A stretch of DNA of 64,000 nucleotides from positions 381,670 through 445,669 of the forward strand of contig JAEUSM010000017.1 in assembly GCA_016788785.1 (NCBI GenBank), written 5' to 3'. Every line of letters starts with the position of its first letter. Position 1 is the stretch's first letter. The notes beneath the pieces were generated by a model. The model searched no databases and was not told the origin of the DNA. It saw only the letters and a list, made by a program, of their open reading frames with translations. The stretch comes from Candidatus Kapaibacterium sp. GTDB taxonomy: Bacteria; Bacteroidota; Ignavibacteria; Kapaibacteriales; JAEUSM01. The position numbers and the translations under genes are program-made. This document shows, in pieces, positions 28,161 to 45,321 of this stretch.

Positions 28161-28877
28161 ATGAATACTGAAGAAACAAAAAGAGAATCCGAAGAAACAG
28201 AAGAACAAATAGAACAAACAACGGAAAATCCGTCTGCGAACTTTTTTAGCACTACACTTGGAAAAATAGCAATTGTTGTAGTACTATTAATCGTTACAGT
28301 CTCAGGAGTTATCTATTGGCAATCACAACAAAAAGAAAATGCACAAAAAGCCTCATTGGCGTTGTCAAGAATTCGTACGTACTTCGAGTCTGGCGACTAT
28401 CAAAGAGCATTAAATGGGGATCCTGGTACTCAAATTAGAGGTGAGTCTATCCAAGGGTTAACTGCCATTGTCTCTGAATATGGTGGAACAGCATCCGGTA
28501 AAACTGCAGCTTATTATGCAGGTATAGCGTATGTGAATTTGAAAAATTATTCTGAAGCAACGGCAATGTTTGAAAAAGCAACTGGTTCAGAATCAGATGT
28601 AGTCAAAGCAGGAGCTTCGGCTGGTTTAGCAGTTATCGCAGAACATAGCAATAACTTTGCTTCCGCATCAGAACAATATATGAAAGCATCAAGCTTAGCA
28701 CAAGATGATGTATCAAAAGCAAGATTTTTGTATTTCTCAGCAATCTGTTTAGAAAAAATTTCTAAAAAAGAAGAAGCTATAAGTCAATTTAAAGAAGTAG
28801 TCAATAAATATGGTCAAACTGAATATGCTGGAGATTCCAAAGCAGGTTTGGTAAGGCTTGGCACAATTATTGACTAA
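28161..28877 (+). CDS. Membrane-anchored TPR protein (YfgM-like)
   Basis: From ATG 28161 the protein is 238 residues: an acidic Glu/Thr-rich cytoplasmic N terminus (about 1-27), one membrane helix (about 36-57, IAIVVVLLIVTVSGVIYW), then four or five TPR-like helix pairs (KTAAYYAGIAYVNLKNYSEATAMFEKA; YFSAICLEKISKKEEAISQFKEVVNKYG). This architecture matches YfgM-type periplasmic TPR proteins (TPR_21 family), which in other bacteria associate with the Sec translocon and periplasmic chaperones. A TTG at 28125 is a weaker start. A TATATTTG element at 28084-28091 may be its promoter. A terminator follows at 28884, so it is separate from the giant surface gene. Confidence 0.8.
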   Translation: MNTEETKRESEETEEQIEQTTENPSANFFSTTLGKIAIVVVLLIVTVSGVIYWQSQQKENAQKASLALSRIRTYFESGDYQRALNGDPGTQIRGESIQGLTAIVSEYGGTASGKTAAYYAGIAYVNLKNYSEATAMFEKATGSESDVVKAGASAGLAVIAEHSNNFASASEQYMKASSLAQDDVSKARFLYFSAICLEKISKKEEAISQFKEVVNKYGQTEYAGDSKAGLVRLGTIID

Positions 28878-28970: not shown

Positions 28971-31900
28971 ATGAAACTTTGGTTTCGTCTAGGTCTAATC
29001 CTTCTTGTGTCCATCCTATCTGTAGTACAGGTAGTACAGGCACAGACGCCAACTTTGGATGTTTCTGGAAGGATTAACTCAACGGCACTTCGCGTGTTTA
29101 CGAAAGATACTGTATACAGAATTAACGGTACCCTTACCGTTGCTGGTACACTTCTTATTGAGCCGGGAACAAGAGTTGAGTTTTTCCCTAATGGTCGTCT
29201 AATTGATAGCGTCGGGGGCAGAATCATAGCAGATGGTACTCTATCTGCTTCGTTTAACTCTTCGATTACTCCACAAAGTATTAACTTTGCGTGGAATTAT
29301 GGTACGTTAGATTACTATTATTCCCCAGGTGTTATTACCAGTGCAGTATCAAACGATGCAACTGTTTCTCCGTCAAAGAGAAACCTTGTATTCAATTTTA
29401 AAGTTGGTCCAACAGGGATTGTGAACTCAAACACAATCAACCCTGGTGAGTACGCAATGACACCAGCCCAAGCGTTGTTATTTACAGCGGCTAGAATTGG
29501 TGGCGATGGATTCAACAATTCTGTTACTTATAGAAGAGGTAATGGAAATTCGGTAAACGTTACTCCTGCTCCTATTACATTCGTAGGTCAGCCAGTTGGT
29601 AACTTTTCTAACGAATGGGGGCATATTATTATCCTTCCGGGTTCACGTTCTGCATTTTTCAGAAATTGCGTGTTCCAAAACTTTAGAAAAGATACTACTG
29701 TTGATAGAGTAGCAATTTATGGTCAAGGTGGTACACCAACTGCTTTGCAAAATTTAAACAATGCAATTAATAAAGAAACTAATGGTGTGGGTGGAGCGAT
29801 TACTTCGTTCTCATCTCGTACTTGGTTGATTGGTTGTACATTCCGCAACAACTTTGCACGTCGCAAAGGTGGAGCTGTATCTCTTCAACAAGCATTACCT
29901 GGTATTGGTGTTTATCCTCCAGTTGATGTTGTGCCTTTAGGTTTCTATGAAGCGAACAAAAACCCAGCATTAACTGACAACCAAACTGGTCAGCCAAATG
30001 CTGTAAATGCATCTATCATTAGAATTGATAATGCTGATACAACCTTAGCAGAGCCATTAACCGATGCAAATCGTCAAGTTGTTGATGATGCTCGTGTTGC
30101 TACTTTCTTAGGTCGTCATCGTAACTTGACTTTTGAAAACAATGAAGTATTGCTTTCAAACTATGGAATCCAAACTGTTGGTACTCCTCCAGTTCAAGTT
30201 ATTTCTGACTTATTGAACCAACCTGCTACCTTCCCAAGAGCTTGGGGTGATGAAGCATACGGTGGTGCGATGTCTATTGAAGGTCGTGATGAAACTCGTA
30301 AAATTGAAGTTGGTTTAGGTATCAATAACTCAATTAGAGTTGGTAATCAAATTCGTGTTTTTGCTACTGCAGACTCTTTAAACTTTAGAAATAACCGTGC
30401 AAGAAACTTACAATCAAATCCAGCATCATTAGGTGCTCGTGGTGGTGCATTGTATGTTGGTAACTATACTAACGTTACTCTTGCTGGTCGTTTTGATAAT
30501 AACAGCACAAGTGCACCATTCCAAAGCAATGTGAATCAAGCATTCTATTCTTTAGGTGGAGCAATTTATGCTGCAAATACTCAAGGCAGACTTCAAGTTC
30601 GTGGTGGACGTGAAGATATTACTGGTGAAGCTCGTGAAGTAGTTTCTCACTTCACAAACAATACTGCTGGTGCAGGTGGAGCTATCTATATTGATGGAAA
30701 CGTTGACAAACAAATGTCTCCAATTATTGGTGGTTTTGATGTTGCAACTGGTGGTCTTGCTGGTATTCTTCGTGTTCGTGAATACGGTAGAAATATCTTG
30801 TTCGAAAACAACACGGCTACTGTACACGGTGGTGCGATTTACACTAAACGTAATTTAGCATCTGTCGGTGGTGGTGGTGTTGTTCAAAATATCAATTTAG
30901 GATATGATAACAATGTTATCTATCGTAACAATACTGCTGGTTTGTCAGGTGGTGCTATAAGTATCAACATTCCTCCAGGAACGTTAACTCAAAATGACAG
31001 ATATGTACAATTAGTACGTTCTACATTCCAAGGTAACATGGTTTCTTCACCAACTGCATCTGCTTCTGATAAGCAACTTGTTCGTGGTGGTGGAGCTATT
31101 TACTCTGTGAATGCTGATTTGAATCTTGTAAAAGGTTCTCAGTTTATGAACAATACTGTGTATAATGGTAATGGTGGTGCGATTGCAATGATTAGCCCGA
31201 ATGTAACTGGTAACAGATACTTCTTGTCTGATCTTGATAACGTTACGTATTCTTTAGGTACACGTGGTGTTGCAACTGCTTATCAATCACTTGACTCAGT
31301 ATTTACACGTTTGACAGTTACAACTCCAGATGCGAGAATGTTAACTCGTTTCATCGAAAATCAAGCTGAAACTAATCCAGATCCAACATTGATGGGTTCT
31401 GGTATTACTCAATTAGGTGATGTAAAAAGAGTTCACCCAGGTCTTCCATTACGTGAAAACGGTATTGGTCTTGGTGGAGCAATCTATGTATTAGATTCTG
31501 TTACTACTAACAGAAATATGAGAGTTGACTCTATCTTCTTCAACCGTGTTCGTATCCAAGGTAACGATGCTTGGACTGGTGCTGCTATCTACTCTGATAA
31601 CTATAACCTTCGTCTAAACTTCGCTCGTTCCTTAGTAACTCAAAATATTGCGACTTCAAATATTGGTAAAAACCAAAATGCAGTTACTGGTCCTTACCTT
31701 GTAAATGTTGTTACTCAACAAGGTGATACAGCAAACTTGAACCCTGCTTCTTCTGATTTAGCTGGAGCGGTATTCTATGGTGAAGTAATTGGTCCAGTTC
31801 CTTCTTTCCGTTCTTTTGAAGCTGGTAATACAATTGATGAAAATCAAGCTCGCTTTATTATTCGTCTTCCAGATGCCCCTGACTCTAAAGGTACTCTCAT

Positions 31901-34900
31901 CGGTACTACTGGTGTTGGTTTCGGTGGTGTTGATACACTTCGCGGAAACTATTGGGGTCAATCTGAAGCAAAAGTTATCTTAAAACAATATGTTTATAAT
32001 GGTTTAGGTAACATCGTTGATAGTACTACTCAAGAGACATTCTTCATTGATTTTGACACTACAAATGGTGCTACTAATCAATTAAGCTTTATCCGTGGTG
32101 CTACTGACGGAACAAAACAAACACAAGGTCCTTTCGAGCGTGCTGGTAAAGTTCCAAATTGGACATATACTCCAATTCCAAACTTGAATGCTGCTTGGAA
32201 TAATCAAGATGCTGTTAATCCAGTTTCAATCCCAGAATACATCTTATTATCTGGTCATATCTATGACATTTTTGATAAAAATACAGACATCAAAGTAGCA
32301 GATTACTCTCGCGAACGTCTATCTCCAATTGAAGACTTTGCTGTTGGTATTCCTCCACGTTTACGTCTGTACACTGATGCAACTAAACCTTCTTTAGGTA
32401 AAGTAATTAAACGTCTAACTCGCGATACTCGTTATGTTGATTCAACTGCGAAATATCCGTTCTTGACTACATTACAAACTGAATGGGCATCTCGTGAATT
32501 TGATACACGTTATTCTAGCCAATCTCTTGGTGGAAGACTTGTTCATCCTCTAGGATATCCATTGTATTTAGAAGCTCAAACAAACTATAACTGGTCTTCT
32601 ATCAACCGTGCAGATATTACAAATGATGATCCATTGTACCACAATGAATCAGTATTCTTTGTTATCAACGTTACAACAGGTGACTTCATTCGTGTAAACA
32701 TGAAGCAGTTAACTGAAGGTAGCGAAATTTTACGCGGTAAAGTTGACTTAGTTCCTGACTCTACTAATAGAAGTGATACAAGACTTCGTTTAGCAGCTGA
32801 AGGATTGAGTGTGTTCCCTGCTGGTATCAATGCAATTTTAAGTGAATTAGCATCAGCAGAAAAAGAAGACAATGGTGTACTTCAAGGTCGTAAATACGAT
32901 GCAGATCAATTAAACTTAGGTACTATGCCAGCTTCTTTGAATGGATTCTCTCCATATTCAAATCAGCCGTCATTAAACCTTACTCGTCAAAACTTACCTG
33001 GTAACAGAGACCAAGTAACATACTTTGCAGGTCAAAGATATGGTGCTTTACCTGTTAACGTTGGTGACCATATACATATCAATTCTCGTACAATCTTACG
33101 CCGTGAAGGTGTTGATAGTGCAAGAAACAAAGGTATCGATTTCGTTATTACTGAGTCTACTCCAGCTCCACGTTTTACTGGTGCAGTTGATTCTTTGACT
33201 AACTTCATCGTTCCTGAATTTAGAAAAAGCATTTTCGTAGTTGAAGACAGAGATTATCCAGAGTTTTACGATGCAAGAGCTCGTAACGAAGTTTTACGCA
33301 TCACTGCTCGTGATACAAACAATTTCTGGGATCCACGTTCAATTATGAATCCTTCACATCGTGCTAGATTAGACTATAGCTGGTCTCCTCTAGGTGGTGT
33401 TAACAATGCTCTTTCTTATTGGTTAAAAGCTGATACTACTCAAAATGATAACGTAGGTACATACAACCGTGCAAATGGTTGGGTTGAATTATTTGGTACG
33501 CCAATCAATCCATTTGTTGTACCTGGTGGTGAGCGTTTAGTTGTTGGGGTTACTAATTTCCCTCCAAGTAAATTTACTGCTGAACAAACAATTGCATATG
33601 ATTACTATAACGATGCTACAGCAACGTTGACTAAAGTAACAAATGGTAATGATACTGTCGCAAGAGTAAATGCAAACATTTTCAGATCATTCTTTAATGT
33701 TCCTGTATATGATGTAGCAAACTCTCGTTATTTACAACAAGATACTTTAAACTACGCAAGAAACTTAACTTCTCGCGATACAGTAAGAATCTTTGTAATA
33801 GATAGTATTCCTCAATTCGTTTTACGTGCTAACTCAATTCAACCTGCAACAAGAAACTTCAATTTCTCTAATGCTGGTTCTCCGTTAGATATCGAACAAT
33901 TATCAGTTCCTGCAACGTATAACATTGCTGGTGACCCTGTTTCAAACCACAGATTATGGATTGCAAACGTAGCTGATGATGATATTCTTCGTTTCCAAAT
34001 TGATGTGAACACTAATGATGAATTAGAAGATTCATTAGCAGCAAGTGGTAGATTCTCTTCACTTGATGGTACACAATTGTTCTGGAACTTCCCTTATGGA
34101 AGAACTTCTTACTCATTCGCTTCTGGCGCTAACAGTGCAAACGACTTAATTAATGTTGACAACAATGTTACTGAAGTTCGTCCAAATTGGTTAGCAAACA
34201 AATATAACTATGAGTTAGTAAAACCTGACCAAGATCAGGCTCCAACTGTTATAGATACTAATTTGACAGAATTTGCAACTCGTGGTAGATTAAATATCCG
34301 TGTTCCCGCAAATGAGACTTTTGGATTATTAACTCCAAGAACTTCTCAGACTTTGAACCAAAATCTAAACTTAGATACATTAGTTCGTATCGCAGTTAAT
34401 GATGGTCATGGTGGAATTAACTTCTTAACAAGAAGAATCATTGTTAATATTGCTCCAACGATTTTGACTACTCAACTTCCTGAAGCTGTAGAAGACTTTG
34501 ATTATAATCCGACATTAGATTCAACAATCCGTATCGTAGCATTTGATCATAATGCAGGTAACTGGGGTAATTTAGATAGTTTCAGATTGATTTATGCTCC
34601 TGAGACTGGTATTAGAAAAGATGAACATTTCTGGGAAGCTGGAAACTGGGATGCGATTACTTCTACCGCTAAAACTCCAGCATGGTTGAAAATCAATACA
34701 AGAAGTGGTGTTCTTTATGGTACTCCAACATACGATGCTGCTGATGTAAATGATGCACCAAGAAATGTTGATACTGTAACAGTATTGGTTAAAGACCAAG
34801 GTGGTTTGACTCATGTAGTTAATCTTCCATTAACAGTACGTGCAACTAACCATGCTCCAGAATGGGGTGATGCACCAGTAGTTCGTTGTATCGATACTGA

Positions 34901-36101
34901 TTCTTTATCTACATATTCTGAAGAAGTAACAATCTTTGACAAAGACTTGAATAGAAGAATTGTTGAGACTGAAACTGTTAGCTTTACTGTTGTAAAACCA
35001 GCTGGTTTGACAGTAAATCCTACACAAGTAACCTCTCAATCTGCTAACTTTACAAGTTCTCAAAGAGTTACTATCACAGCAGGTCCTGGATTTACATTAT
35101 CTCCTGGTGGACATGATGTAGTTATCTTGGCTACTGATGCTGATGGTTTAGTTGATACTTTAGAATACAAATTAACAGTTGCAGAGTCAATTGCTTATGG
35201 TTTCCCTATAACAATTACTAACAATAAAGGTGCTACTCAAACATTACGTTTTGGTGCATCTACGAATACTGCAGCAACAACTACAGGAGACTTGTTCATT
35301 CCAAACTTAAATGATGATTTTGGAAAATTAGATACAAATCACTGTGAGTACGAATTGCCACCTATTCCAAATAATGACGTATTCGATGCTCGCTGGACAT
35401 TACCAAATATCAATGGTTTATTACGTAATGTTTATCCTGTTCCTCAAACTGATCAACAAGCAAAAGAACATTTGTTCAAAGCAAGATTCCAATCAGGTGG
35501 AGTAACTGGTCTTAATGCAGATGTATTCCCAATTAGAATTACTTGGTCTAAATCTGCAGCTGATCGTGCTAACAAATTTATTCAACAAGCACCAAGAAAT
35601 ATCGCGAGAAGACTATTCATCCAAGATAGAAATTCTCAAGGTAACATCTTCTTCGTACACATGGCTGATGCATTAGATTCTAACAATAGAACAGCATCTA
35701 TCCAAGTACAAGAAATTGGTGATGAAATTACAATTTTGGTTACACGTGATGAAATCGAAGGTTTTGTAATTAGTTACGAACCATTCGAAAGATTTACTTC
35801 AGTTGAGACTCCAAGAGGAAATGAAACAATACTTTCTGTAGAGTCATATCCAAATCCATTCAATGCTTCAACTACAGTGAACTACAATGTTCCTGCAGGT
35901 GATGTTGCGAAAGTACAAGTTTATGATAATTTAGGAAATGTTGTTGCAACATTGGCGAATGGTCATCATTCAGCTGGTTCTTACTCAGTAAAATGGGATG
36001 GAACTTCTGCAAATGGTTTCACAGTTGCAAATGGTACATATACTATTAAATTAACTGTAGGAGCTGTCAGCACTGTTGAACAAATTATGTTTGTTCGATA
36101 A
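28971..36101 (+). CDS. Giant secreted Pmp-like beta-helix adhesin with type IX sorting domain
   Basis: The 2376-residue protein has a signal peptide (about 1-24, ending VVQA). Residues about 40-100 are a beta-helix entry (GTLLIEPGTRVEFFPNGRLID). About thirteen GGAI/GGAIY-type motifs, many following an N-N turn, are spread over residues about 265-930, the hallmark of polymorphic outer-membrane (Pmp-like) right-handed beta-helices. Residues about 1825-1960 include a cadherin/putative-Ig module (TPAWLKINTRSGVLYGTPTY). The last 90 residues are a sorting domain (SYPNPFNASTTVNY...GNVVATL...TYTIKL). It is likely exported by type IX secretion and displayed as a long fibre-like adhesin or structural surface protein; function is inferred. 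GGAGG precedes the ATG. Codon choice looks strongly biased (GGT, CGT, ACT), suggesting high expression. Confidence 0.85.
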   Translation: MKLWFRLGLILLVSILSVVQVVQAQTPTLDVSGRINSTALRVFTKDTVYRINGTLTVAGTLLIEPGTRVEFFPNGRLIDSVGGRIIADGTLSASFNSSITPQSINFAWNYGTLDYYYSPGVITSAVSNDATVSPSKRNLVFNFKVGPTGIVNSNTINPGEYAMTPAQALLFTAARIGGDGFNNSVTYRRGNGNSVNVTPAPITFVGQPVGNFSNEWGHIIILPGSRSAFFRNCVFQNFRKDTTVDRVAIYGQGGTPTALQNLNNAINKETNGVGGAITSFSSRTWLIGCTFRNNFARRKGGAVSLQQALPGIGVYPPVDVVPLGFYEANKNPALTDNQTGQPNAVNASIIRIDNADTTLAEPLTDANRQVVDDARVATFLGRHRNLTFENNEVLLSNYGIQTVGTPPVQVISDLLNQPATFPRAWGDEAYGGAMSIEGRDETRKIEVGLGINNSIRVGNQIRVFATADSLNFRNNRARNLQSNPASLGARGGALYVGNYTNVTLAGRFDNNSTSAPFQSNVNQAFYSLGGAIYAANTQGRLQVRGGREDITGEAREVVSHFTNNTAGAGGAIYIDGNVDKQMSPIIGGFDVATGGLAGILRVREYGRNILFENNTATVHGGAIYTKRNLASVGGGGVVQNINLGYDNNVIYRNNTAGLSGGAISINIPPGTLTQNDRYVQLVRSTFQGNMVSSPTASASDKQLVRGGGAIYSVNADLNLVKGSQFMNNTVYNGNGGAIAMISPNVTGNRYFLSDLDNVTYSLGTRGVATAYQSLDSVFTRLTVTTPDARMLTRFIENQAETNPDPTLMGSGITQLGDVKRVHPGLPLRENGIGLGGAIYVLDSVTTNRNMRVDSIFFNRVRIQGNDAWTGAAIYSDNYNLRLNFARSLVTQNIATSNIGKNQNAVTGPYLVNVVTQQGDTANLNPASSDLAGAVFYGEVIGPVPSFRSFEAGNTIDENQARFIIRLPDAPDSKGTLIGTTGVGFGGVDTLRGNYWGQSEAKVILKQYVYNGLGNIVDSTTQETFFIDFDTTNGATNQLSFIRGATDGTKQTQGPFERAGKVPNWTYTPIPNLNAAWNNQDAVNPVSIPEYILLSGHIYDIFDKNTDIKVADYSRERLSPIEDFAVGIPPRLRLYTDATKPSLGKVIKRLTRDTRYVDSTAKYPFLTTLQTEWASREFDTRYSSQSLGGRLVHPLGYPLYLEAQTNYNWSSINRADITNDDPLYHNESVFFVINVTTGDFIRVNMKQLTEGSEILRGKVDLVPDSTNRSDTRLRLAAEGLSVFPAGINAILSELASAEKEDNGVLQGRKYDADQLNLGTMPASLNGFSPYSNQPSLNLTRQNLPGNRDQVTYFAGQRYGALPVNVGDHIHINSRTILRREGVDSARNKGIDFVITESTPAPRFTGAVDSLTNFIVPEFRKSIFVVEDRDYPEFYDARARNEVLRITARDTNNFWDPRSIMNPSHRARLDYSWSPLGGVNNALSYWLKADTTQNDNVGTYNRANGWVELFGTPINPFVVPGGERLVVGVTNFPPSKFTAEQTIAYDYYNDATATLTKVTNGNDTVARVNANIFRSFFNVPVYDVANSRYLQQDTLNYARNLTSRDTVRIFVIDSIPQFVLRANSIQPATRNFNFSNAGSPLDIEQLSVPATYNIAGDPVSNHRLWIANVADDDILRFQIDVNTNDELEDSLAASGRFSSLDGTQLFWNFPYGRTSYSFASGANSANDLINVDNNVTEVRPNWLANKYNYELVKPDQDQAPTVIDTNLTEFATRGRLNIRVPANETFGLLTPRTSQTLNQNLNLDTLVRIAVNDGHGGINFLTRRIIVNIAPTILTTQLPEAVEDFDYNPTLDSTIRIVAFDHNAGNWGNLDSFRLIYAPETGIRKDEHFWEAGNWDAITSTAKTPAWLKINTRSGVLYGTPTYDAADVNDAPRNVDTVTVLVKDQGGLTHVVNLPLTVRATNHAPEWGDAPVVRCIDTDSLSTYSEEVTIFDKDLNRRIVETETVSFTVVKPAGLTVNPTQVTSQSANFTSSQRVTITAGPGFTLSPGGHDVVILATDADGLVDTLEYKLTVAESIAYGFPITITNNKGATQTLRFGASTNTAATTTGDLFIPNLNDDFGKLDTNHCEYELPPIPNNDVFDARWTLPNINGLLRNVYPVPQTDQQAKEHLFKARFQSGGVTGLNADVFPIRITWSKSAADRANKFIQQAPRNIARRLFIQDRNSQGNIFFVHMADALDSNNRTASIQVQEIGDEITILVTRDEIEGFVISYEPFERFTSVETPRGNETILSVESYPNPFNASTTVNYNVPAGDVAKVQVYDNLGNVVATLANGHHSAGSYSVKWDGTSANGFTVANGTYTIKLTVGAVSTVEQIMFVR

Positions 36102-36115
36102 GAGATTGCAAAATA

Positions 36116-36144
36116 TGGGGGTGGAACACCCACCCCCAATTTAT
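36116..36144 (+). terminator. Hairpin after the giant surface gene
   Basis: TGGGGGTGG (36116-36124) pairs perfectly with CCACCCCCA (36130-36138) around AACAC, followed by ATTTATT. The short T-rich tail suggests partial termination, allowing reduced read-through into the following surface genes. Confidence 0.7.
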
Positions 36145-36184
36145 TAAAAAATAAATGCAAAATTTAAAAAATTCGGAGATTAAC

Positions 36185-38152
36185 ATGAAACGCTTTCAAT
36201 ATATTGTACTTGCAACATTCGTAGCAATGTTTGCATTGACAAATACAAGTAAAGCTCAAATCAACGCGGATTTTGAACCACCTGTAGTTATTACTAATCA
36301 GATATACACTGAAATTTGTGATGTGGACACTGTTATTCAAGCGTCTAGTTTTTATAGAATTTTAGCTGGTAATACGATAGTAGCTGACAGAAATGATGGT
36401 TATTTTCCTTTAGAATTGAGTAATTTACCGTTTAAATTTGATTTCGGTGGCTTCAGAGTTAGTAGAATTTGGATTAGTGTCAATGGATTCGTTTCCTTTG
36501 ATAATGTTCAACCAGGTTCTATCTCTGCCAACCAACGTAATCCTCGTGGTTTGTTTATTAAATCTGCTACTTTTCCTAATTATGTTGCAGCTCCATTTTG
36601 GGGTGATCACTATTACAGACAAGTTCCAGACAGATTGTCATTGACAAACAAATTTACTAAATCAAGAATATCGTACGCAGTTGTAACTGAAAAAGATTTT
36701 AACTGTAATCCAGTTCAAAATCCTCGTAAAATGCTTATCATCCAATGGAAAGATTTGAATGTTCAAGATACTACCAATACACAATCAGTTGCAAACTTTC
36801 AAATTCGTTTGATTGAAAAAAGAGATGATGTTAAAAACAATTACCAAGGTGATATTGAATTTTGGTATGGACAAGTAAATGGTAATGATTCATCTACAGT
36901 GGTAAATGGTAATTATGTAGGTGCATCTGTTGGTCTTAAAGGAACCTTAGGTTTCAATAACGACTTTGCAGATTTCTACAATGGTTTATCATTCAACACT
37001 CCTGGAACTTCAGGTACAGATACTAATAGAACTTTTGCTTGGAAACCTACTGGTGGAGATGCAAGAATCTTACGTTTCGTAGCAAGACCTCGTCAATTCT
37101 CTTCAAACGAATGGGGTAATGGAGATCCAGATTTATCGACTGCATCTGGTCAAAGACACTTTGGTTTCGAACAAAACAGATATGTAACATTGTCTGATGT
37201 TCATGAAATCTTAAAGTCAGAAACTACTAGAATTCGTTTAGACTCTGTTTACAGAAGAAATGCATTTTATGCTGACGTGAATCATAATGGTCGTTATTAC
37301 TTTACAAAATCAGGAAATGTTGTTACGAAAAACTTCATGACATTCAGAAATATCGCTTTCGATAAATTTGGACCAGGTGAAGGACCACTTCCTGTAGGTA
37401 TTACAAATCCATTTACTGAGATTTTCTACGAAGCTAATTCTTATGATGCTGCGTTAATTCTTGGTTACTTACAAAACATTGTTCCAACATTACCTTGGTT
37501 ATTAGATACTACGGTAATTTCTGGAAAAGCATCATCTGTTGCAAATGCATCTTCAATTGAATTTGTTAATTCTGAAGTTGTTTCAGCGAATACTTATAAA
37601 GTTCCTGTTTATTTAAATGGAAATTCAAGAGTATTCTCAACTACATTTGATGTTGAAAATGCAAATGTTGTTTCTATTGAAACAGTTGATAATAGTGTTG
37701 TAGCAAGATTTGACAACAATCGTGTTGCAATCGTTGGTCATGGTTCTTTTGACTTTGACAAACCAGTTGCATACATGACTGTTGAAAGTTCAAATGCTTT
37801 GGCTACTGCAAAAAATGTTAACTTCAATGAAGCAGAAGTTCCTTCTGTAACTATGGAATTAGCATCGCAATTGCAAACTGCTTTTGGTGTATCAAATACT
37901 CCAAATCCGTTTACTCAATCTACAAACATTTCGGTATCTATTGAAAATGCTGGAAACTACTCTGTAGGCGTTTATGATCAACTTGGTAACAAATTGACAA
38001 CATTACGTCAAGGTTGGTTAACTCCTGGTCTTTACAATATTGAATGGAATGGAACAAATCAATCTGGTGCTTCTTTGAGCAACGGTATTTATTTTGTTCG
38101 TGTTGATGGTGATAGAAATACAGCAAGTCGCTCAGTTATTTTGAACAAATAA
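36185..38152 (+). CDS. Secreted surface protein with type IX sorting domain (655 aa)
   Basis: The ATG at 36185 gives a clean signal peptide (MKRFQYIVLATFVAMFALTN, cut after SKAQ) and is preceded by CGGAGAT; the in-frame start 10 codons upstream is not used. Residues about 60-330 form a beta-rich domain with VSRIWISVNGFVSFD and YVAAPFWGDHYYR, a pattern of nidogen-like or lectin-like secreted domains. Residues about 480-560 resemble a cohesin-like sandwich. The C-terminal about 85 residues are a sorting domain (NTPNPFTQSTNISVSI...GIYFVRVDG). Function is unknown; it is probably a partner of the giant adhesin just upstream. Confidence 0.8.
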   Translation: MKRFQYIVLATFVAMFALTNTSKAQINADFEPPVVITNQIYTEICDVDTVIQASSFYRILAGNTIVADRNDGYFPLELSNLPFKFDFGGFRVSRIWISVNGFVSFDNVQPGSISANQRNPRGLFIKSATFPNYVAAPFWGDHYYRQVPDRLSLTNKFTKSRISYAVVTEKDFNCNPVQNPRKMLIIQWKDLNVQDTTNTQSVANFQIRLIEKRDDVKNNYQGDIEFWYGQVNGNDSSTVVNGNYVGASVGLKGTLGFNNDFADFYNGLSFNTPGTSGTDTNRTFAWKPTGGDARILRFVARPRQFSSNEWGNGDPDLSTASGQRHFGFEQNRYVTLSDVHEILKSETTRIRLDSVYRRNAFYADVNHNGRYYFTKSGNVVTKNFMTFRNIAFDKFGPGEGPLPVGITNPFTEIFYEANSYDAALILGYLQNIVPTLPWLLDTTVISGKASSVANASSIEFVNSEVVSANTYKVPVYLNGNSRVFSTTFDVENANVVSIETVDNSVVARFDNNRVAIVGHGSFDFDKPVAYMTVESSNALATAKNVNFNEAEVPSVTMELASQLQTAFGVSNTPNPFTQSTNISVSIENAGNYSVGVYDQLGNKLTTLRQGWLTPGLYNIEWNGTNQSGASLSNGIYFVRVDGDRNTASRSVILNK

Positions 38153-38153
38153 T

Positions 38154-39371
38154 ATGTTGAGACTTCTCTATATTTTCGTTATGGTACCAGTCCTTTGGGC
38201 TGGTACCGTATACGGAAATCAACAAGACTCAATATTACAAATTAAAGTAATTGGTGGAGTTGTTAGAGATACTTTTGATTATTGTTCTGAAGGTGAAAAA
38301 GCTATTACTTTAGAAATTTCCGTTGGGAATGTTTCATTGGCTGATAGTTTAATGTTCTTTGAAATTGTAATGCCTCTTGATACATCGAAGTTACGATACG
38401 ATGGTCAAGTATTTTTTACGAACACCTTAGGAGGTGGAAGTAGTATGTTTACTTCAACCGGCTATGATCCAATTTCGAATCAAATTTTTATAGAGGCTGG
38501 TAATAAAGATTTGAGCTTAATTGCGGGTAATGTACCATTGGTTCGTTTAAGATTGATTTCAAAAGTTACCTGTGATGATTCTATACCATTTACTGCGAAA
38601 GCTTACTTTAATAGTGAATTTAAAAAGGGGATAATGCCTCCATTGTCTTTCAATAAAGAATTATCTGGTAGTCATCAAATAGTAGCAAGACCTATATTTA
38701 AAGCATCAAGATTTTTGTCAACAACAATTGACGGTGTAGATACTGTTCGAGTAGACTCTGTAAAAACAACAAAAATTCCAATCACTATTGCAAGTGGTCC
38801 CGAAACAAATGTTGATTCAATAAGAGTTTATTTGTCAATCAGAAATAATCCAAATATTTCTATACCATCGTATGAAGTTTCCTGTGGCGACTTCAAGTTG
38901 ACTGAAGTTGATTCTTTCAATTGGTTCTTTGACTATAAAACATCAAATCCTAATGGAGTGTTGTTTCAAACGGAAGTAGAAGTAAAAACTATCGGTACTG
39001 CAACAGATAGTTTTGATATATTCCTTTGGAGTAAAAGTCTTACATCTTGTGATTGTATTACGTTTAACTCTATGACATCTACAAAAATTACTCATGGGTA
39101 TAAAGGAGTAATATCATCTGTAAATGATAATGAAAGTAATGAAATTGTCATTAAAGAAACAAATGAAATTATAGAATTACAATCTACGAGTGGTAAAAAT
39201 ATAACCGGTGTAACAATTTTCTCACTACTTGGTGAGAAGGTGTTTGAATCAAATTATGATAGTTACAATGTTGTACTTACTAAACGGCTACTTTCTTCTG
39301 GAATGTATCTAATCCATGTACAGTATGACCATAAAACAGAAATAAATTTAAAATATATATTTAACAATTAA
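38154..39371 (+). CDS. Secreted cohesin-like protein with sorting-type C terminus (405 aa)
   Basis: The start ATG lies one base after the previous stop and has no ribosome-binding site of its own, so translation is probably coupled. A signal peptide (about 1-22) precedes a beta-sandwich resembling cohesin-type modules (ITLEISVGNVSLADSLMFFEIVMPLDTSKLRYDG, then VPLVRLRLISK, about 40-170) and a second beta region. The C-terminal 75 residues look like a sorting domain (ITGVTIFSLLGEKVFE...SSGMYLIHVQY) but lack the PNPF motif. Codon use appears less biased than in the flanking surface genes. Function unknown; surface assembly is inferred. Confidence 0.75.
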   Translation: MLRLLYIFVMVPVLWAGTVYGNQQDSILQIKVIGGVVRDTFDYCSEGEKAITLEISVGNVSLADSLMFFEIVMPLDTSKLRYDGQVFFTNTLGGGSSMFTSTGYDPISNQIFIEAGNKDLSLIAGNVPLVRLRLISKVTCDDSIPFTAKAYFNSEFKKGIMPPLSFNKELSGSHQIVARPIFKASRFLSTTIDGVDTVRVDSVKTTKIPITIASGPETNVDSIRVYLSIRNNPNISIPSYEVSCGDFKLTEVDSFNWFFDYKTSNPNGVLFQTEVEVKTIGTATDSFDIFLWSKSLTSCDCITFNSMTSTKITHGYKGVISSVNDNESNEIVIKETNEIIELQSTSGKNITGVTIFSLLGEKVFESNYDSYNVVLTKRLLSSGMYLIHVQYDHKTEINLKYIFNN

Positions 39372-39392
39372 TTACAGTAATCGGAGACAATT

Positions 39393-42300
39393 ATGAAAAA
39401 ACAGTATTCGTTTTTTGCGAGTAAACTGCTCCTTTCATTTCTCATTTTGGTGGGTGTTCTCGGCTTCAAATCGCAGGAATTACTTGCTGTGACGCCTTGC
39501 GGAGACGTAGCACCAAAATTACCAGAGCTCAGTTTAGTTATGGGCAACAAAGCCGATGGAGAACGTGTATACCCAAGTGGTATTTACCGTATGTATCCAT
39601 CACGTGGCACAGAAGCTAGACGCGAAATTTTAGTCCCTGTGTTTATTGAAAACTCATGGGTTTCTGATCTTACAAATCCTGCTTTAGCGGTTTTGCCAAT
39701 TTACAGTTTCAAATTCAAAGTTCAATTTGATAGCTCTGAATTTGAATTTATTTCTGTACAACGTTTTGGTGCTCGTCCACAGGACACGGTATCAATGGCA
39801 AAACACTTTAATTTAAGTGCGGATGTTATGAATGATACTACCTATACACGTAGTTACCAAGCATTCAGCCCTGATAATGGTGCAAATCCATCAACTTTTG
39901 ACCAAATTCGTAGAATTCGTGGTAAAAGAGTTATGATTGCAGGTTCTTCAGCTGAACCTCTTCCAACTACATGTGGCGAGTTTTTACCTCTTGTTTATTT
40001 GAAATTCCGTTACAAAAAAACAGAAAACTCTCCTGATATCGTACCTACAATGATCATGATAACAAATGATTCTTTGATGTATAATGATTTTGTAGTTCGT
40101 TACAATGTTGCTACAGCTCCTGTAAATCAATTGCCGTTTCCATCACGTCCAAGATTTAATCCTGAAAATATTCAGTTTGGTTTGCCAGTACCAAAACCAG
40201 ATAATCCTGCATTAGGTGCTGAATTGGAAAGAACTACATTTAGAGGTTTGTCTGGTATTGATCATTCAGATGTTCCTCAATCTGTTAGAAACGCTTTCGC
40301 TTCATTCCCATGTATTCCAGGTTCGCTTTGGTTTGTACCGTATACTGAATTTCCACGTCTTTCATTTACAGATAATAATTCTGAAATTAGAGACTTGGGT
40401 GCAGATCCTTCTACGTTGTTTTTACGTGATATCCATAAATTCAATAAATATTCTGAAACTGATTGGCAGTTAATTGAACCTATTCATTGTAATTTTAACA
40501 ATGCAAACATTCAAACTCCAGCTACCAGAATTATGGTACGTAATGAAGTTCCTAATACACGTGTTACTAACCTAAGAGTATTTACGGATTCTCCATGGTT
40601 AAGAGTTCGCTCTTTCAATAATACTGCTGGTGCAACTACATTGCCAAACCCAATTCCTGTTGCAACTAGAGACTCTGTTATTCCATCAATTGATAATGGT
40701 CTTTTAGGTGTTGCCTCTTTATGGGATAACACTTCATTGAATGCACAAGAGCAAAAAGTTGGTTTGGAAATTCAAGTGAGTAGAACTCCAGATATGAGAG
40801 ATAACTCTGCTGAACGTACAGGTATGTATGTTGGTAATATTTATTTCTCTTCAGAAGATTTGAATAATGGTCGCGTAAAACTTCAAGTGAAATTCTTCCA
40901 TTTCAAAAATCCACTTGAGTTCTACAGTAACTTAGATATGCAACAAGATGTATCTCGTGAATCTGAAGCTGAAGGTATTCCTTTGGAACTTGAAGGTATC
41001 TCTCAATCAGGTGGAGCACCTCAAAATCCAGTTAGATTAATATTTGGTACTGGTTTTAGAGCAACTGATGGTATTGACTCTTTGTTTGGAGAGTATGCAT
41101 ACCGTTCTATCCCTGCTCAACAAGATTCTTTCTGGGCAAGATGGTTCAATCCAGAATTGCGTAACTTTGACAATACTGCTGATTCTGTTCCATTTGGTTT
41201 TGGTGATGTTCCTTTAGATAACAACACACTTCGTATTGAACGTTATAAATCACGTGATATCCGTAGCGTTTATGACACTACAAACTCATTACGTTTCTAT
41301 TGCCGTTTCAATAGAGGTTTCAATATCAACGATCGTATCGTTGTAACTTGGGATGATGGTTTCTTCCCAACAGGTTCTTCTTTGTTTATCAGAGATACAC
41401 TTGGTGGTCAAATCTTCTCTCAAAACATGAGAACTGCTACTGTTGTTGGTACTGGAACTCGTGGAACTAAACGTTCTTATACAATCCAAGATGCACGTAT
41501 TACATCATTCGTAATTGAGTATACTCCACCAAAAACATTGCGTTTTGTTGATGAAAATGATTCTGCAATTATCAAAAAAGGTTGGAACTTGTTGTCATTA
41601 CCTGTAAGACCATCAAGTGACTTCTACAAAGACATTTATCCAAATGCATTCAACAAACCATTTATCTTCAATGGTAATACATATGTTGCTGCTGAAAACT
41701 TAAGTGTTGGTACAGGTTACTTTGTATTGTATGGTGATGATCGCGATATTAATTTCCAAGGTGTTCGTATCTCTGAAATTAATGCAAATAATCAAGTACG
41801 TTTATTACCAGGTTGGAACACTATTGGTGCATTATCTGAACCAGTTGCAACGAAATATATCAACTTTGCGGAATACCAAAATAATCCTATTCCTTCAACA
41901 GGACAGATTAAATCAGGTATTTATGGTTATCAAACAGATCGTGGTTACAGAGAAGTAACTGAATTACTTCCTGGTCGTGGTTATTGGATAGACATTGATG
42001 TTATTTCTTACTATACAATCAAATTACCACCAACAGGTAAAGCGACTGTTCCAGTAGTTGACCATGAGAGAAACTCAGTTTTATCATCATCAGCTAAGTT
42101 AGTACTTCGTGATGTAGATCAAAAAGAAGCGGAAGTATATGTGTCAAATGATCAATCTGCTATTTTAAACAGATTCTCAATGCCACCAGTACCTCCATCT
42201 CAAATGTTTGACGTTCGTTTTACATCAAACAAATATGTTGAAAATGCTGATGCACCAGTTATCCGTTTCCAAGCGGTTAAATATCCTGTTGCATTAACAA

Positions 42301-42704
42301 TTGAGAATACGAACAAATCATACACTGCAGTTGATGCTTCAACTGGAAAAGTATTAGGTACATTATCTTCTTCTTCTCCATCTGTTGTTATCAATGATGC
42401 ATCTGTTGAATATGTAAAACTTCTTCCTTCAAATGGAGCTGGTTTAGATCTTGCAGTTGCTGCTTATCCTAATCCGTTTGATGTTAGTTCAACAATTAAC
42501 TTCTCAGTTCCAGCTGCTGGATCTGTATATGTGAAATTGTACAACACTATGGGTCAAGAAGTTGCTACTATCGTTAATGGAACGTACAATGTTGGTACAT
42601 ATTCAGTTCCATTCTCAACAACAACATTGCCAACTGGTCAATACTTGTTGAAAATATTCTCTAACAATAATGTTTCTGTAAGCACAGTAAATATTGTTCG
42701 ATAA
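39393..42704 (+). CDS. Large secreted surface protein with type IX sorting domain (1103 aa)
   Basis: The ATG follows CGGAGAC. A signal peptide (about 1-30) is followed by a cohesin-like domain (VPVFIENSW...YSFKFKVQFDSSEFEFISVQ, about 60-230), long beta-rich regions, a GWNLLSLPVRP segment near residue 730 and a related LPGWNTIGAL near 805 (repeated modules often seen in Ignavibacteria-type secreted proteins), and a sorting domain (AYPNPFDVSSTINFSVP...GQYLLKIF) in the last 85 residues. It is the second largest member of the surface locus and looks highly expressed by codon choice. A strong terminator follows. Biological role is unknown. Confidence 0.8.
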   Translation: MKKQYSFFASKLLLSFLILVGVLGFKSQELLAVTPCGDVAPKLPELSLVMGNKADGERVYPSGIYRMYPSRGTEARREILVPVFIENSWVSDLTNPALAVLPIYSFKFKVQFDSSEFEFISVQRFGARPQDTVSMAKHFNLSADVMNDTTYTRSYQAFSPDNGANPSTFDQIRRIRGKRVMIAGSSAEPLPTTCGEFLPLVYLKFRYKKTENSPDIVPTMIMITNDSLMYNDFVVRYNVATAPVNQLPFPSRPRFNPENIQFGLPVPKPDNPALGAELERTTFRGLSGIDHSDVPQSVRNAFASFPCIPGSLWFVPYTEFPRLSFTDNNSEIRDLGADPSTLFLRDIHKFNKYSETDWQLIEPIHCNFNNANIQTPATRIMVRNEVPNTRVTNLRVFTDSPWLRVRSFNNTAGATTLPNPIPVATRDSVIPSIDNGLLGVASLWDNTSLNAQEQKVGLEIQVSRTPDMRDNSAERTGMYVGNIYFSSEDLNNGRVKLQVKFFHFKNPLEFYSNLDMQQDVSRESEAEGIPLELEGISQSGGAPQNPVRLIFGTGFRATDGIDSLFGEYAYRSIPAQQDSFWARWFNPELRNFDNTADSVPFGFGDVPLDNNTLRIERYKSRDIRSVYDTTNSLRFYCRFNRGFNINDRIVVTWDDGFFPTGSSLFIRDTLGGQIFSQNMRTATVVGTGTRGTKRSYTIQDARITSFVIEYTPPKTLRFVDENDSAIIKKGWNLLSLPVRPSSDFYKDIYPNAFNKPFIFNGNTYVAAENLSVGTGYFVLYGDDRDINFQGVRISEINANNQVRLLPGWNTIGALSEPVATKYINFAEYQNNPIPSTGQIKSGIYGYQTDRGYREVTELLPGRGYWIDIDVISYYTIKLPPTGKATVPVVDHERNSVLSSSAKLVLRDVDQKEAEVYVSNDQSAILNRFSMPPVPPSQMFDVRFTSNKYVENADAPVIRFQAVKYPVALTIENTNKSYTAVDASTGKVLGTLSSSSPSVVINDASVEYVKLLPSNGAGLDLAVAAYPNPFDVSSTINFSVPAAGSVYVKLYNTMGQEVATIVNGTYNVGTYSVPFSTTTLPTGQYLLKIFSNNNVSVSTVNIVR

Positions 42705-42739
42705 TAGTTCGTTTCTTTCTTAAAGGAAACAGTATTCAT

Positions 42740-42780
42740 GAAATGGGCAACAGAAATTGTTGCCCATTTCTATTTTTATT
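42740..42780 (+). terminator. Strong rho-independent terminator after the surface genes
   Basis: GAAATGGGCAAC and GTTGCCCATTTC form a perfect 12-bp stem with a 7-base loop, followed by TATTTTTATT. It separates the 1103-residue surface protein gene from the next, smaller one. Confidence 0.9.
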
Positions 42781-42796
42781 TGTACATTTACAGTCT

Positions 42797-43591
42797 ATGA
42801 AAAATAAAATTACCTTTCTTGTGGTGATGGTTTTGTTCGTAATGCCAACAATTGTTCAAGCTCAAAGTGTCTTTGCATCAATTGTTCGTTTAACGATTAA
42901 AGACAATAAAGAGCTTCCTATTTATTTGCAATGTGGATTACGTGCTGAAGCAACTGATGGGTTAGATCCTAATATTGAAGAAGAGATTATACCAAATTTT
43001 CATCCTCCTTGCATTAATAATTTCCATGCTGCTTTTAGAGAACCCGATGGTAATTCTATCTCATGGGGTTCTTTTTGGACGTATACCGATTTCCGTGCTT
43101 TATCGTATAATCCACCACGTGAAAACTATTTTGCAATAACACTGTGTGCTGGAGATAGACCCTATGTTGACTTTTCTTGGGAAATAGATGGGAAGGATGG
43201 ATTAGAATCTGCTCAATTAACGGATAGATTTGGGAATGTTGTTGTGGCAGATCTTTTGCAAACAACCTCAATTCGTTCAACATTATTCACAGAAAACTAT
43301 AGAATTATGTTGAAAAATAAGCCGACTGTTTCTGTAAATCAAGAAAATGTTGCTGAATTGACAACCATTTATCCTAATCCTGCGTCAAATTCCCTATTAA
43401 TTCGTCATGGAAATGACGTATCTTCTATTGAGGTTTCAACGTTAATCGGATCTAATGTGGTATCATTCTCACCAAAAAACAATGAAACGTTCTCTAATTT
43501 GAATATAAGCAATTTATCTGCGGGTTCTTATATTGTGAGAATAATTTCTGTAAAAAATTCAATAGAAACAAAAATCTTTGTTAAACAATAA
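42797..43591 (+). CDS. Small secreted protein with type IX sorting domain (264 aa)
   Basis: The ATG at 42797 gives a signal peptide (MKNKITFLVVMVLFVMPTIV, cut after QAQ); an upstream in-frame GTG start would begin inside the terminator and is rejected. The central part (about 25-170) is an unrecognised domain with several Cys residues and aromatic patches. The last about 75 residues are a sorting domain (IYPNPASNSLLIRH...AGSYIVRII). It is the fifth consecutive secreted gene and lies behind a terminator, so it may be expressed from its own promoter or by read-through. Confidence 0.75.
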   Translation: MKNKITFLVVMVLFVMPTIVQAQSVFASIVRLTIKDNKELPIYLQCGLRAEATDGLDPNIEEEIIPNFHPPCINNFHAAFREPDGNSISWGSFWTYTDFRALSYNPPRENYFAITLCAGDRPYVDFSWEIDGKDGLESAQLTDRFGNVVVADLLQTTSIRSTLFTENYRIMLKNKPTVSVNQENVAELTTIYPNPASNSLLIRHGNDVSSIEVSTLIGSNVVSFSPKNNETFSNLNISNLSAGSYIVRIISVKNSIETKIFVKQ

Positions 43592-43600
43592 TTTCAATTT

Positions 43601-44548
43601 GTGGAAGTACAAAATACTTTAGATATATCTGTGGTTATTCCTTTATTTAATGAGGAAGAGTCTTTACCTGAATTAATAAGTCGATTAGTCACACAGGTTT
43701 CTAACCTTGTTGGAAATAATTATGAGTTGATTTTTATTGACGATGGCTCAACAGATAATTCATTATCAGTACTCAAACAACAAAGAGAAGTAAATAACTG
43801 TATAAAAATCCTTTCTTTTCGAAGAAATTATGGAAAATCTGCTGCGTTAGCTGTAGGTTTTGAATTGGCTTCTGGAAATTATGTGTTTACCATGGATGCA
43901 GATTTGCAAGATGCACCCGAAGAAGTACCGAATCTTTTGGCTAAATTAAAAGAAGGGTACGATTTGGTTTCAGGTTGGAAAAAAGTTCGTCACGACCCAA
44001 TTAGTAAAACCATACCTTCTCGATTCTTTAACTATATCACATCCTTGATGAGTGGAGTCAAGCTTCACGATTTTAATTGTGGACTGAAAGGATATAGAAA
44101 TGAAGTTATCAAGTCATTAGAAGTTTATGGTGAAATGCATCGATATTTACCAGCATTAGCCCATTGGGATGGATTCAAGGTAACAGAAATTCCTGTCCAA
44201 CACTTTCCCAGAGTGTATGGTTATTCGAAATTTGGTTTTAGTCGATTCTTTAAAGGGTTTTTGGATCTTCTCACTGTATTATTTACAACCAGATTTGTAA
44301 AACGCCCGCTACACCTATTTGGAACAGTAGGAACATTGATGGCTTTGTGTGGAATTACTATCAATGGCTATTTGACACTTTCATGGTTTATTAACAATAT
44401 TTCCTTAAGTAATCGACCTCTTACTCTTTTTGGTGTTGCATTAATTATTGTTGGAATCCAATTAGTTTCGGTTGGTTTATTAGGAGAATTAATCGTTAAA
44501 AAATCACTTCAAAATGAAAATTATTCAATAAAAGAACGGATAGTATAA
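43601..44548 (+). CDS. Family 2 polyprenyl-phosphate glycosyltransferase with two C-terminal membrane helices
   Basis: The 315-residue enzyme has the GT-A fold: SVVIPLFNEEESLPEL (10-25), FIDDGSTDNSL, the DxD-type MDADLQDAPEE near residue 100, and GYSKFGFSRFFKGFLDLL before two C-terminal membrane helices. This is the layout of DPM1/ArnC/GtrB-like enzymes that load a sugar onto dolichyl- or undecaprenyl-phosphate for transfer outside the cytoplasm. Such a sugar donor could serve glycosylation of surface proteins or LPS. The start is GTG; no ATG is available before the first motif. It ends in a TAATG overlap with the next gene. Confidence 0.9.
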   Translation: MEVQNTLDISVVIPLFNEEESLPELISRLVTQVSNLVGNNYELIFIDDGSTDNSLSVLKQQREVNNCIKILSFRRNYGKSAALAVGFELASGNYVFTMDADLQDAPEEVPNLLAKLKEGYDLVSGWKKVRHDPISKTIPSRFFNYITSLMSGVKLHDFNCGLKGYRNEVIKSLEVYGEMHRYLPALAHWDGFKVTEIPVQHFPRVYGYSKFGFSRFFKGFLDLLTVLFTTRFVKRPLHLFGTVGTLMALCGITINGYLTLSWFINNISLSNRPLTLFGVALIIVGIQLVSVGLLGELIVKKSLQNENYSIKERIV

Positions 44549-45321
44549 TGAAACAACTTTCACTATTTTTAGGAATACTACTTTGTGGTTTTTTCTTTAC
44601 ACAAAGTATCTATAGTCAAATTCCTCAAATACGCATATCTGGTGGGTTTACTACACAATCCTTTATGGGAGATCAAATTGCGGCAAATTCCTTGGTTGCA
44701 CGTGATTCTATTTCCTTACCTGGAGCGAGTTTTAATGGTCAACAGTTAGGTGCCTCTCTCAAAGCAGTGGTTTATCTTGACTCTAATAAAAAATTCAGCA
44801 TGCCTATTGGATTAGATTATGTCCGTTTTTTTGGGGCTCAACGATTAGAAGTTTCTCAATTTTACAGAATTCAGTTGTTTAACTCTCTTCATGTAATTAC
44901 TCCTACAATAGGTTTGGATTACTCGATGTTCAAACTTCCACTGGCAAATGCAAGTGTGTATGCTGGAGTCGAACTTCGTGGGTCGTTTTTTACAGGTGGA
45001 ACGTTGGTTAGAGAAGATTACTTAAACTTTTATAAGGAAGTTGGGGGGTTTAGAGTGTTTGATAGAGATAGTTTACTCAAGTCAATTGAAACCTCTACAA
45101 AACCGAATACCTTTCGCTTAGGTGGTGCTGTAAAATTAGGGGTCGAAGGTAAAATCCAAGGTCCAATGTTTTTGAATGTCAGTTTGTCTTATGGAAGTCC
45201 AAATTTGTTTGGTCGTGATAATGATCGAGGGGAATTATTTACACCGAATAAAATATTTGAATCACAAGAGTCTCTTGTGACCCAATTGTTCTTCCATTTT
45301 ATGGTTCAATATAGACTTTAA
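44548..45321 (+). CDS. Outer-membrane beta-barrel protein
   Basis: The ATG overlaps the preceding stop codon by one base, indicating co-translation with the glycosyltransferase. The 257-residue protein has a signal peptide (about 1-25, ending IYSQ) and an alternating-strand mature region with many Gly, Tyr and Phe residues, ending LFFHFMVQYRL, a typical last barrel strand. Roughly 10-12 strands fit the length. No specific family is recognisable. Linkage to a polyprenyl sugar transferase and the surface locus suggests an envelope role. Confidence 0.75.
   Translation: MKQLSLFLGILLCGFFFTQSIYSQIPQIRISGGFTTQSFMGDQIAANSLVARDSISLPGASFNGQQLGASLKAVVYLDSNKKFSMPIGLDYVRFFGAQRLEVSQFYRIQLFNSLHVITPTIGLDYSMFKLPLANASVYAGVELRGSFFTGGTLVREDYLNFYKEVGGFRVFDRDSLLKSIETSTKPNTFRLGGAVKLGVEGKIQGPMFLNVSLSYGSPNLFGRDNDRGELFTPNKIFESQESLVTQLFFHFMVQYRL

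Follow-up and report, generated by a model that had tools for sequence, protein, structure and literature searches.

The block and its export signals

Five consecutive open reading frames occupy positions 28971-43591 of the window (the whole stretch of 64,000 nucleotides of Candidatus Kapaibacterium sp. that was analysed), all on the plus strand. We label them P1 to P5, for the frames of 2376, 665, 405, 1103 and 282 aa given by the ORF caller. These five genes, referred to below as the block, are listed here with their upstream neighbour and two hairpins.

28161..28877, plus strand: TPR protein, 238 aa from its ATG start (ORF caller start 28125)
28971..36101, plus strand: P1, 2376 aa, with matches to TIGR04183, PF02415 and PF13860
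36116..36138, plus strand: G+C-rich hairpin in the P1/P2 interval; not conserved
36155..38152, plus strand: P2, 665 aa, with a signal peptide; the start is possibly ATG 36185
38154..39371, plus strand: P3, 405 aa, with a sorting domain that lacks PNP
39393..42704, plus strand: P4, 1103 aa, described from a structure model and profiles
42740..42770, plus strand: intrinsic terminator between P4 and P5, a 14-bp stem and then TATTTTTATT
42797..43591, plus strand: P5, 264 aa from a re-called start, with a signal peptide, one shared domain and a sorting domain

An earlier note on this DNA had described five same-strand genes whose products each carry a signal peptide and a sorting-type C-terminal domain, and our results bear this description out. 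According to the NCBIfam model TIGR04183, which represents the T9SS type A sorting domain and has a cut-off of 23 bits, all five proteins pass (P1, 29.4 bits; P2, 28.5; P3, 23.9; P4, 28.7; P5, 37.4), and a hydrophobic, signal-type segment is present at the N-terminus of all five, as judged by hydropathy only. P1, P2 and P3 fall below the stricter cut-off of Pfam PF18962. The PNP motif, which the note had placed, complete or nearly so, in four of the five proteins, is present in P1, P2, P4 and P5 and absent from P3. Its reading of the C-terminal domains as T9SS export signals agrees with the TIGR04183 matches and with the source genome, which encodes the translocon protein SprA (SprA_N, E 9.7e-38) and the sortase PorU (749.9 bits against a cut-off of 420). 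The sorting domains, SprA and PorU support the prediction that P1-P5 are T9SS type A cargo; the type B sorting-domain model gave no match among P1-P5 at E 0.1.

The source genome (2.97 Mb, 99% complete) contains approximately 145 sorting-domain matches, which we estimate to be about 6% of roughly 2,500 genes; at this frequency, five adjacent genes of the kind would seldom arise by chance. Five more sorting-domain proteins are encoded consecutively on one strand at G000:C5:252717-259093; they are similar in size (~520-595 aa) and are perhaps tandem paralogues. Because this second run exists, a run of five is not unique and is in itself weak evidence. The unusual feature of the P1-P5 run is its conservation.

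The TPR protein upstream of the block has one transmembrane segment followed by TPR repeats, with a match to Pfam TPR_21. Downstream, positions 43601-45321 of the window encode a glycosyltransferase of the dolichol-phosphate-mannose-synthase type and a protein that is predicted to form a beta-barrel and matches no family; the barrel has no NCBIfam match, and hence no SprF-type gene adjoins the block. Elsewhere in the window, at 368-2185 on the minus strand, lies a gene for a 605-aa sorting-domain protein without other known domains.

Domain architecture of the five proteins

P1 consists of a signal peptide, a PMP-type beta-helix at residues ~270-840, an Ig/cadherin-like part, a domain shared with P4 and P5 near 2118-2193, and a FlgD/PorU-like sorting domain at 2293-2372 (PF13860, 51.1 bits). 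The Chlamydia PMP repeat is recognised at 44.7 bits (PF02415, cut-off 20.6), and nine GGA[hydrophobic] motifs are all contained within residues 274-835. Because the PMP repeat and the GGA motifs are confined to this region, the beta-helix forms the N-terminal part of P1 and not the whole protein. The view of P1 as a 2376-residue GGAI-repeat beta-helix protein is therefore correct as to the repeats, but the helix does not extend over the full length. P1 has the PMP/GGAI-repeat beta-helix in common with the Chlamydia Pmp autotransporters; in contrast to them, it terminates in a T9SS sorting domain (FlgD_ig/Por_Secre_tail), and no autotransporter barrel was matched at its C-terminus by Pfam or NCBIfam.

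Structure models were made for P2 and P4. The AlphaFold model of P2 (pLDDT 81) comprises a weak nidogen-like region at ~104-240, for which the match to PF06119 is 20.1 bits and below the cut-off, a beta-sandwich at ~468-568, and a PorU-like sorting domain at 574-665. The best solved match of this C-terminal domain is the PorU sorting domain 6za2 (Z 11.6, 22% identity), and the PorU model is matched by 19 of 33 members of the P2 family. Beyond the sorting domain, searches of PDB folds with the whole P2 model returned generic Ig-like matches only, and for the rest Foldseek and VIA-align likewise returned only common Ig-like matches. The PorU sorting domain remains uncleaved in Porphyromonas (PMC10202324), and we speculate that PorU-like sorting domains could mean that P1 and P2 also stay uncleaved. 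In family f9, P2 proteins of ~900-945 aa (L046, L047, L064-L067) have a doubled N-terminal domain, which is seen as separate matches to model positions 2-290 and 54-640.

P3 is fast-evolving, with a mean column identity of 24% (alignment A3). Across the order (the Kapabacteria/OPB56 group), four of its cysteines (44, 140, 299 and 301) show almost no variation, and C44 and C301 are invariant there. In family f19 the four cysteines are missing at the aligned positions; perhaps they form disulfides that were lost or gained by one lineage.

P4 begins with a domain at ~42-318 that resembles several cohesins (Z ~10.3) and thus has a cohesin fold, the same fold as that of cellulosome scaffoldin cohesins; Pfam detected neither a dockerin nor a glycoside hydrolase in P1-P5. 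The domain is followed by the shared domain (~526-709), a GWNLLSLP region from ~730 and a sorting domain at 1018-1103, and the C-terminus matches the PorU sorting domain (Z 11.1). Across the shared domain the P4 model is poor, with several stretches of pLDDT under 50. Cohesin-like sandwiches had been proposed for two proteins; P4 conforms, whereas the cohesin likeness of P3 comes from a weak profile match only.

The ORF caller placed P5 at 42743-43591 (282 aa). Because position 42743 lies inside the P4/P5 hairpin, P5 probably begins instead at ATG 42797, which gives it a proper signal peptide. When the P5 profile (alignment A4) was run against the source genome, the N-terminal domain was recognised in P5, in P4 (E 3.7e-8) and weakly in P1 (E 0.09), and nowhere else in this genome; the other A4 matches were to the sorting domain only. 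Among relatives in the order, 38 of 40 P4 proteins and 24 of 41 P1 proteins contain the P5 domain; for families f13 and f19 the corresponding counts are 8 of 12 (P4) and 12 of 12 (P1). Profile-profile comparison of P5 with P4 (hhalign) gives a probability of 97.4% (E 1e-11). The motif of the shared domain is FG....ATDG.D..LGE.ELPP.PP.

Conservation of the block in the order and beyond

Each protein, without its signal peptide and sorting domain, was searched against 99 genomes of the order. Matches were obtained in 88 genomes for P4, 85 for P1, 82 for P2, 35 for P5 and 23 for P3; P3 and P5 evolve faster than the other three proteins. None of the ten genomes of family f7 has a match to P1, P2 or P4, and all 89 remaining genomes contain one or more of the five. 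Despite the absence of the block, f7 retains many T9SS sorting-domain matches.

We read 40 loci, drawn from eight other families within the order. In all 40, the arrangement is P1, P2, P3 slot, P4, P5 slot, and 36 are complete according to the ORF caller; two gaps are due to an antisense ORF that displaces P2 (L044) or P4 (L059). The median intergenic gaps from P1 through P5 are 80, 2, 16 and 76 bases. The block is mostly single copy, and unlinked genes were not seen among the genomes of the order except at contig ends (verified for the apparent splits in G067 and G080, and judged by coordinates near contig ends in other fragmented genomes). One assembly, G040 (BPHJ01000001.1 KatS3mg039), carries two copies of the block, L070 and L071, ~45 kb apart on opposite strands; one of them scores identically to the copy of another species (G003, L041), which would fit either a recent transfer or a mixed assembly.

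A search with P4 as a single protein against the genome contigs gave no match, and a P4 profile was needed. This profile was run over 294 genomes of the class, and full-length matches beyond the order were confined to f13 and f19; in other class genomes the match was limited to the GWNLLSLP region or to the sorting domain. All 12 loci of f13 and f19 have the block in the same order with different wider flanks, although no full-size P5 was given by the ORF caller in L190, and P3 is recognisable in f13 and in part of f19 only. According to a P2 profile run over 395 genomes of the phylum, there are 32 matches at E up to 1e-30, all of them in the order, f13 or f19. The fixed gene order thus spans 11 families in total. 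Scattering of the genes in relatives would have spoken against the earlier note; instead, the same order was found in 52 loci outside the source genome.

In the P1, P2, P3, P4 and TPR trees, f13 and f19 form one group. The tree-distance correlations are 0.94 for P1-P4, 0.86 for P1-P2 and 0.83 for P2-P4, and those with the adjacent TPR gene are lower (0.61-0.69). This agreement is only suggestive, as such values also increase with protein length and shared ancestry. The observations fit a block that was inherited at one site and lost in f7 and elsewhere.

The neighbours of the block behave differently from its members. The TPR gene lies directly upstream in 37 of 40 loci of the order, and we considered whether it is a dedicated assembly factor. 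However, TPR orthologues are present in all sampled class genomes without the block, and in eight of the nine f7 genomes searched, where other genes follow them. Because genomes without the block, f7 included, carry the TPR gene, it is an old neighbour at a fixed site and not a dedicated part. Many f2/f3 loci likewise have the glycosyltransferase and beta-barrel genes after the block, whereas loci of f4-f6 and f8-f10 do not, and the glycosyltransferase is not conserved beside the block in f13/f19 either.

The P4/P5 hairpin with its T-tract is kept in 24 of 40 loci, compared with 1% of shuffled sequences. The P1/P2 hairpin is kept in 3 of 41, and at junctions other than P4/P5 a hairpin occurs in at most 7%. 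The suggestion that partial terminators grade the stoichiometry of the products consequently retains its P4/P5 half and loses its P1/P2 half; as a pair of conserved attenuators the two hairpins were rejected, since P4/P5 alone is conserved. Because a terminator is conserved 3′ of P4, P5 is probably made in a lower amount, by read-through or from its own promoter.

A probable surface assembly and the alternatives

Because of the fixed order, the joint absence from f7, the correlated trees, the domain private to P1, P4 and P5, the T9SS genes and the conserved terminator, we consider it reasonably likely that P1 to P5 form a single conserved module for building a multi-subunit structure of the outer surface. 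A fibre, a lattice or an adhesive layer may be the form of this assembly. P1-P4 would be co-transcribed as one transcript, cross the inner membrane via Sec, exit through SprA by means of their C-terminal domains, and reach their surface position through PorV/PorU-type handling. P1 would then be a long beta-helical rod or wall element, and P2 and P3 would be Ig-like linking parts. The shared domain would serve as a docking module with which P4, bearing the cohesin domain, and P5 bind P1 or each other, and P5, present in a smaller amount after the terminator, would act as a cap, adaptor or limiter. Two points count against one assembly: genes of one operon may serve a common purpose although their products do not touch, and in the source genome P1 matches the shared domain only weakly.

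The five proteins could instead be separate adhesins or matrix proteins that are encoded together for common regulation only. T9SS cargoes are commonly independent, and the source genome has its other run of sorting-domain genes. However, an unchanged gene order in 11 families whose flanks vary, the joint absence from f7, the tree correlation and the private domain exceed what co-regulation demands, and we regard separate adhesins as rather unlikely.

An S-layer lattice, in which several T9SS-exported glycoproteins self-assemble over the whole cell, is the next alternative. The Tannerella forsythia proteins TfsA and TfsB have a signal peptide and a T9SS C-terminal domain, as the proteins of the block do, and self-assemble on the surface; paired S-layer proteins are thus an established T9SS export (PMC4175972, PMC10202324). 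The near-universal presence of the locus in the order, its mostly single copy and the downstream glycosyltransferase here and in many f2/f3 loci would all suit a lattice of this type. Nevertheless, Tannerella has two such proteins, whereas the present locus encodes five unlike subunits, one of them a beta-helix, which would be unusual; moreover, the glycosyltransferase is not kept beside the block in f4-f6, f8-f10 and f13/f19. S-layer models of NCBIfam and Pfam gave no match in P1-P5. We consider an S-layer unlikely.

The Flavobacterium johnsoniae gliding operon sprC-sprD-sprB-sprF encodes a very large T9SS-secreted surface protein and its partners (PMC10202324), and the block is alike in this respect. 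SprB has a type B domain and requires SprF (PMC12618676, PMC10202324), whereas here all five proteins are type A and no SprF-type gene adjoins. We rejected an SprB-type gliding adhesin operon, which fails on the type B domain and the adjacent PorP/SprF-type gene.

P1 and P2 have sorting domains similar to that of PorU, which stays uncleaved in Porphyromonas (PMC10202324), and the block might accordingly encode accessory T9SS parts, for example of the surface attachment complex. This role is very unlikely because f7 keeps many sorting domains without the block; in addition, 363 of the 395 genomes sampled across the phylum lack P2, and the T9SS is widespread in this phylum. That the order is kept by genomic inertia, without functional coupling, is hardly credible: the pdhAB-like and TPR neighbours, and in some families the glycosyltransferase and beta-barrel genes, are partly conserved too, but the five genes stay together in f13 and f19 where the wider flanks differ, and f7 lost P1, P2 and P4 but kept TPR.

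Returning to the multi-subunit assembly, we tentatively propose, at less than even expectation, that the block encodes an undescribed T9SS-built surface organelle characteristic of Kapabacteria and two further families of the class, in which a private docking domain links unlike subunits: a giant protein with a beta-helix, one with a cohesin fold and a small limiting one. No published description was found in the open-access literature on Kapabacteria and type IX secretion, although this is weak evidence of absence. To our knowledge, the known T9SS surface structures are few, namely the Tannerella S-layer and the gliding adhesins. If our proposal is true, a five-gene module kept in fixed order across 11 families, in a group with few cultured members, would represent a further kind of T9SS-built assembly, in which the shared domain directly predicts which subunits touch, and it may explain how Kapabacteria cells attach or form their outer face.
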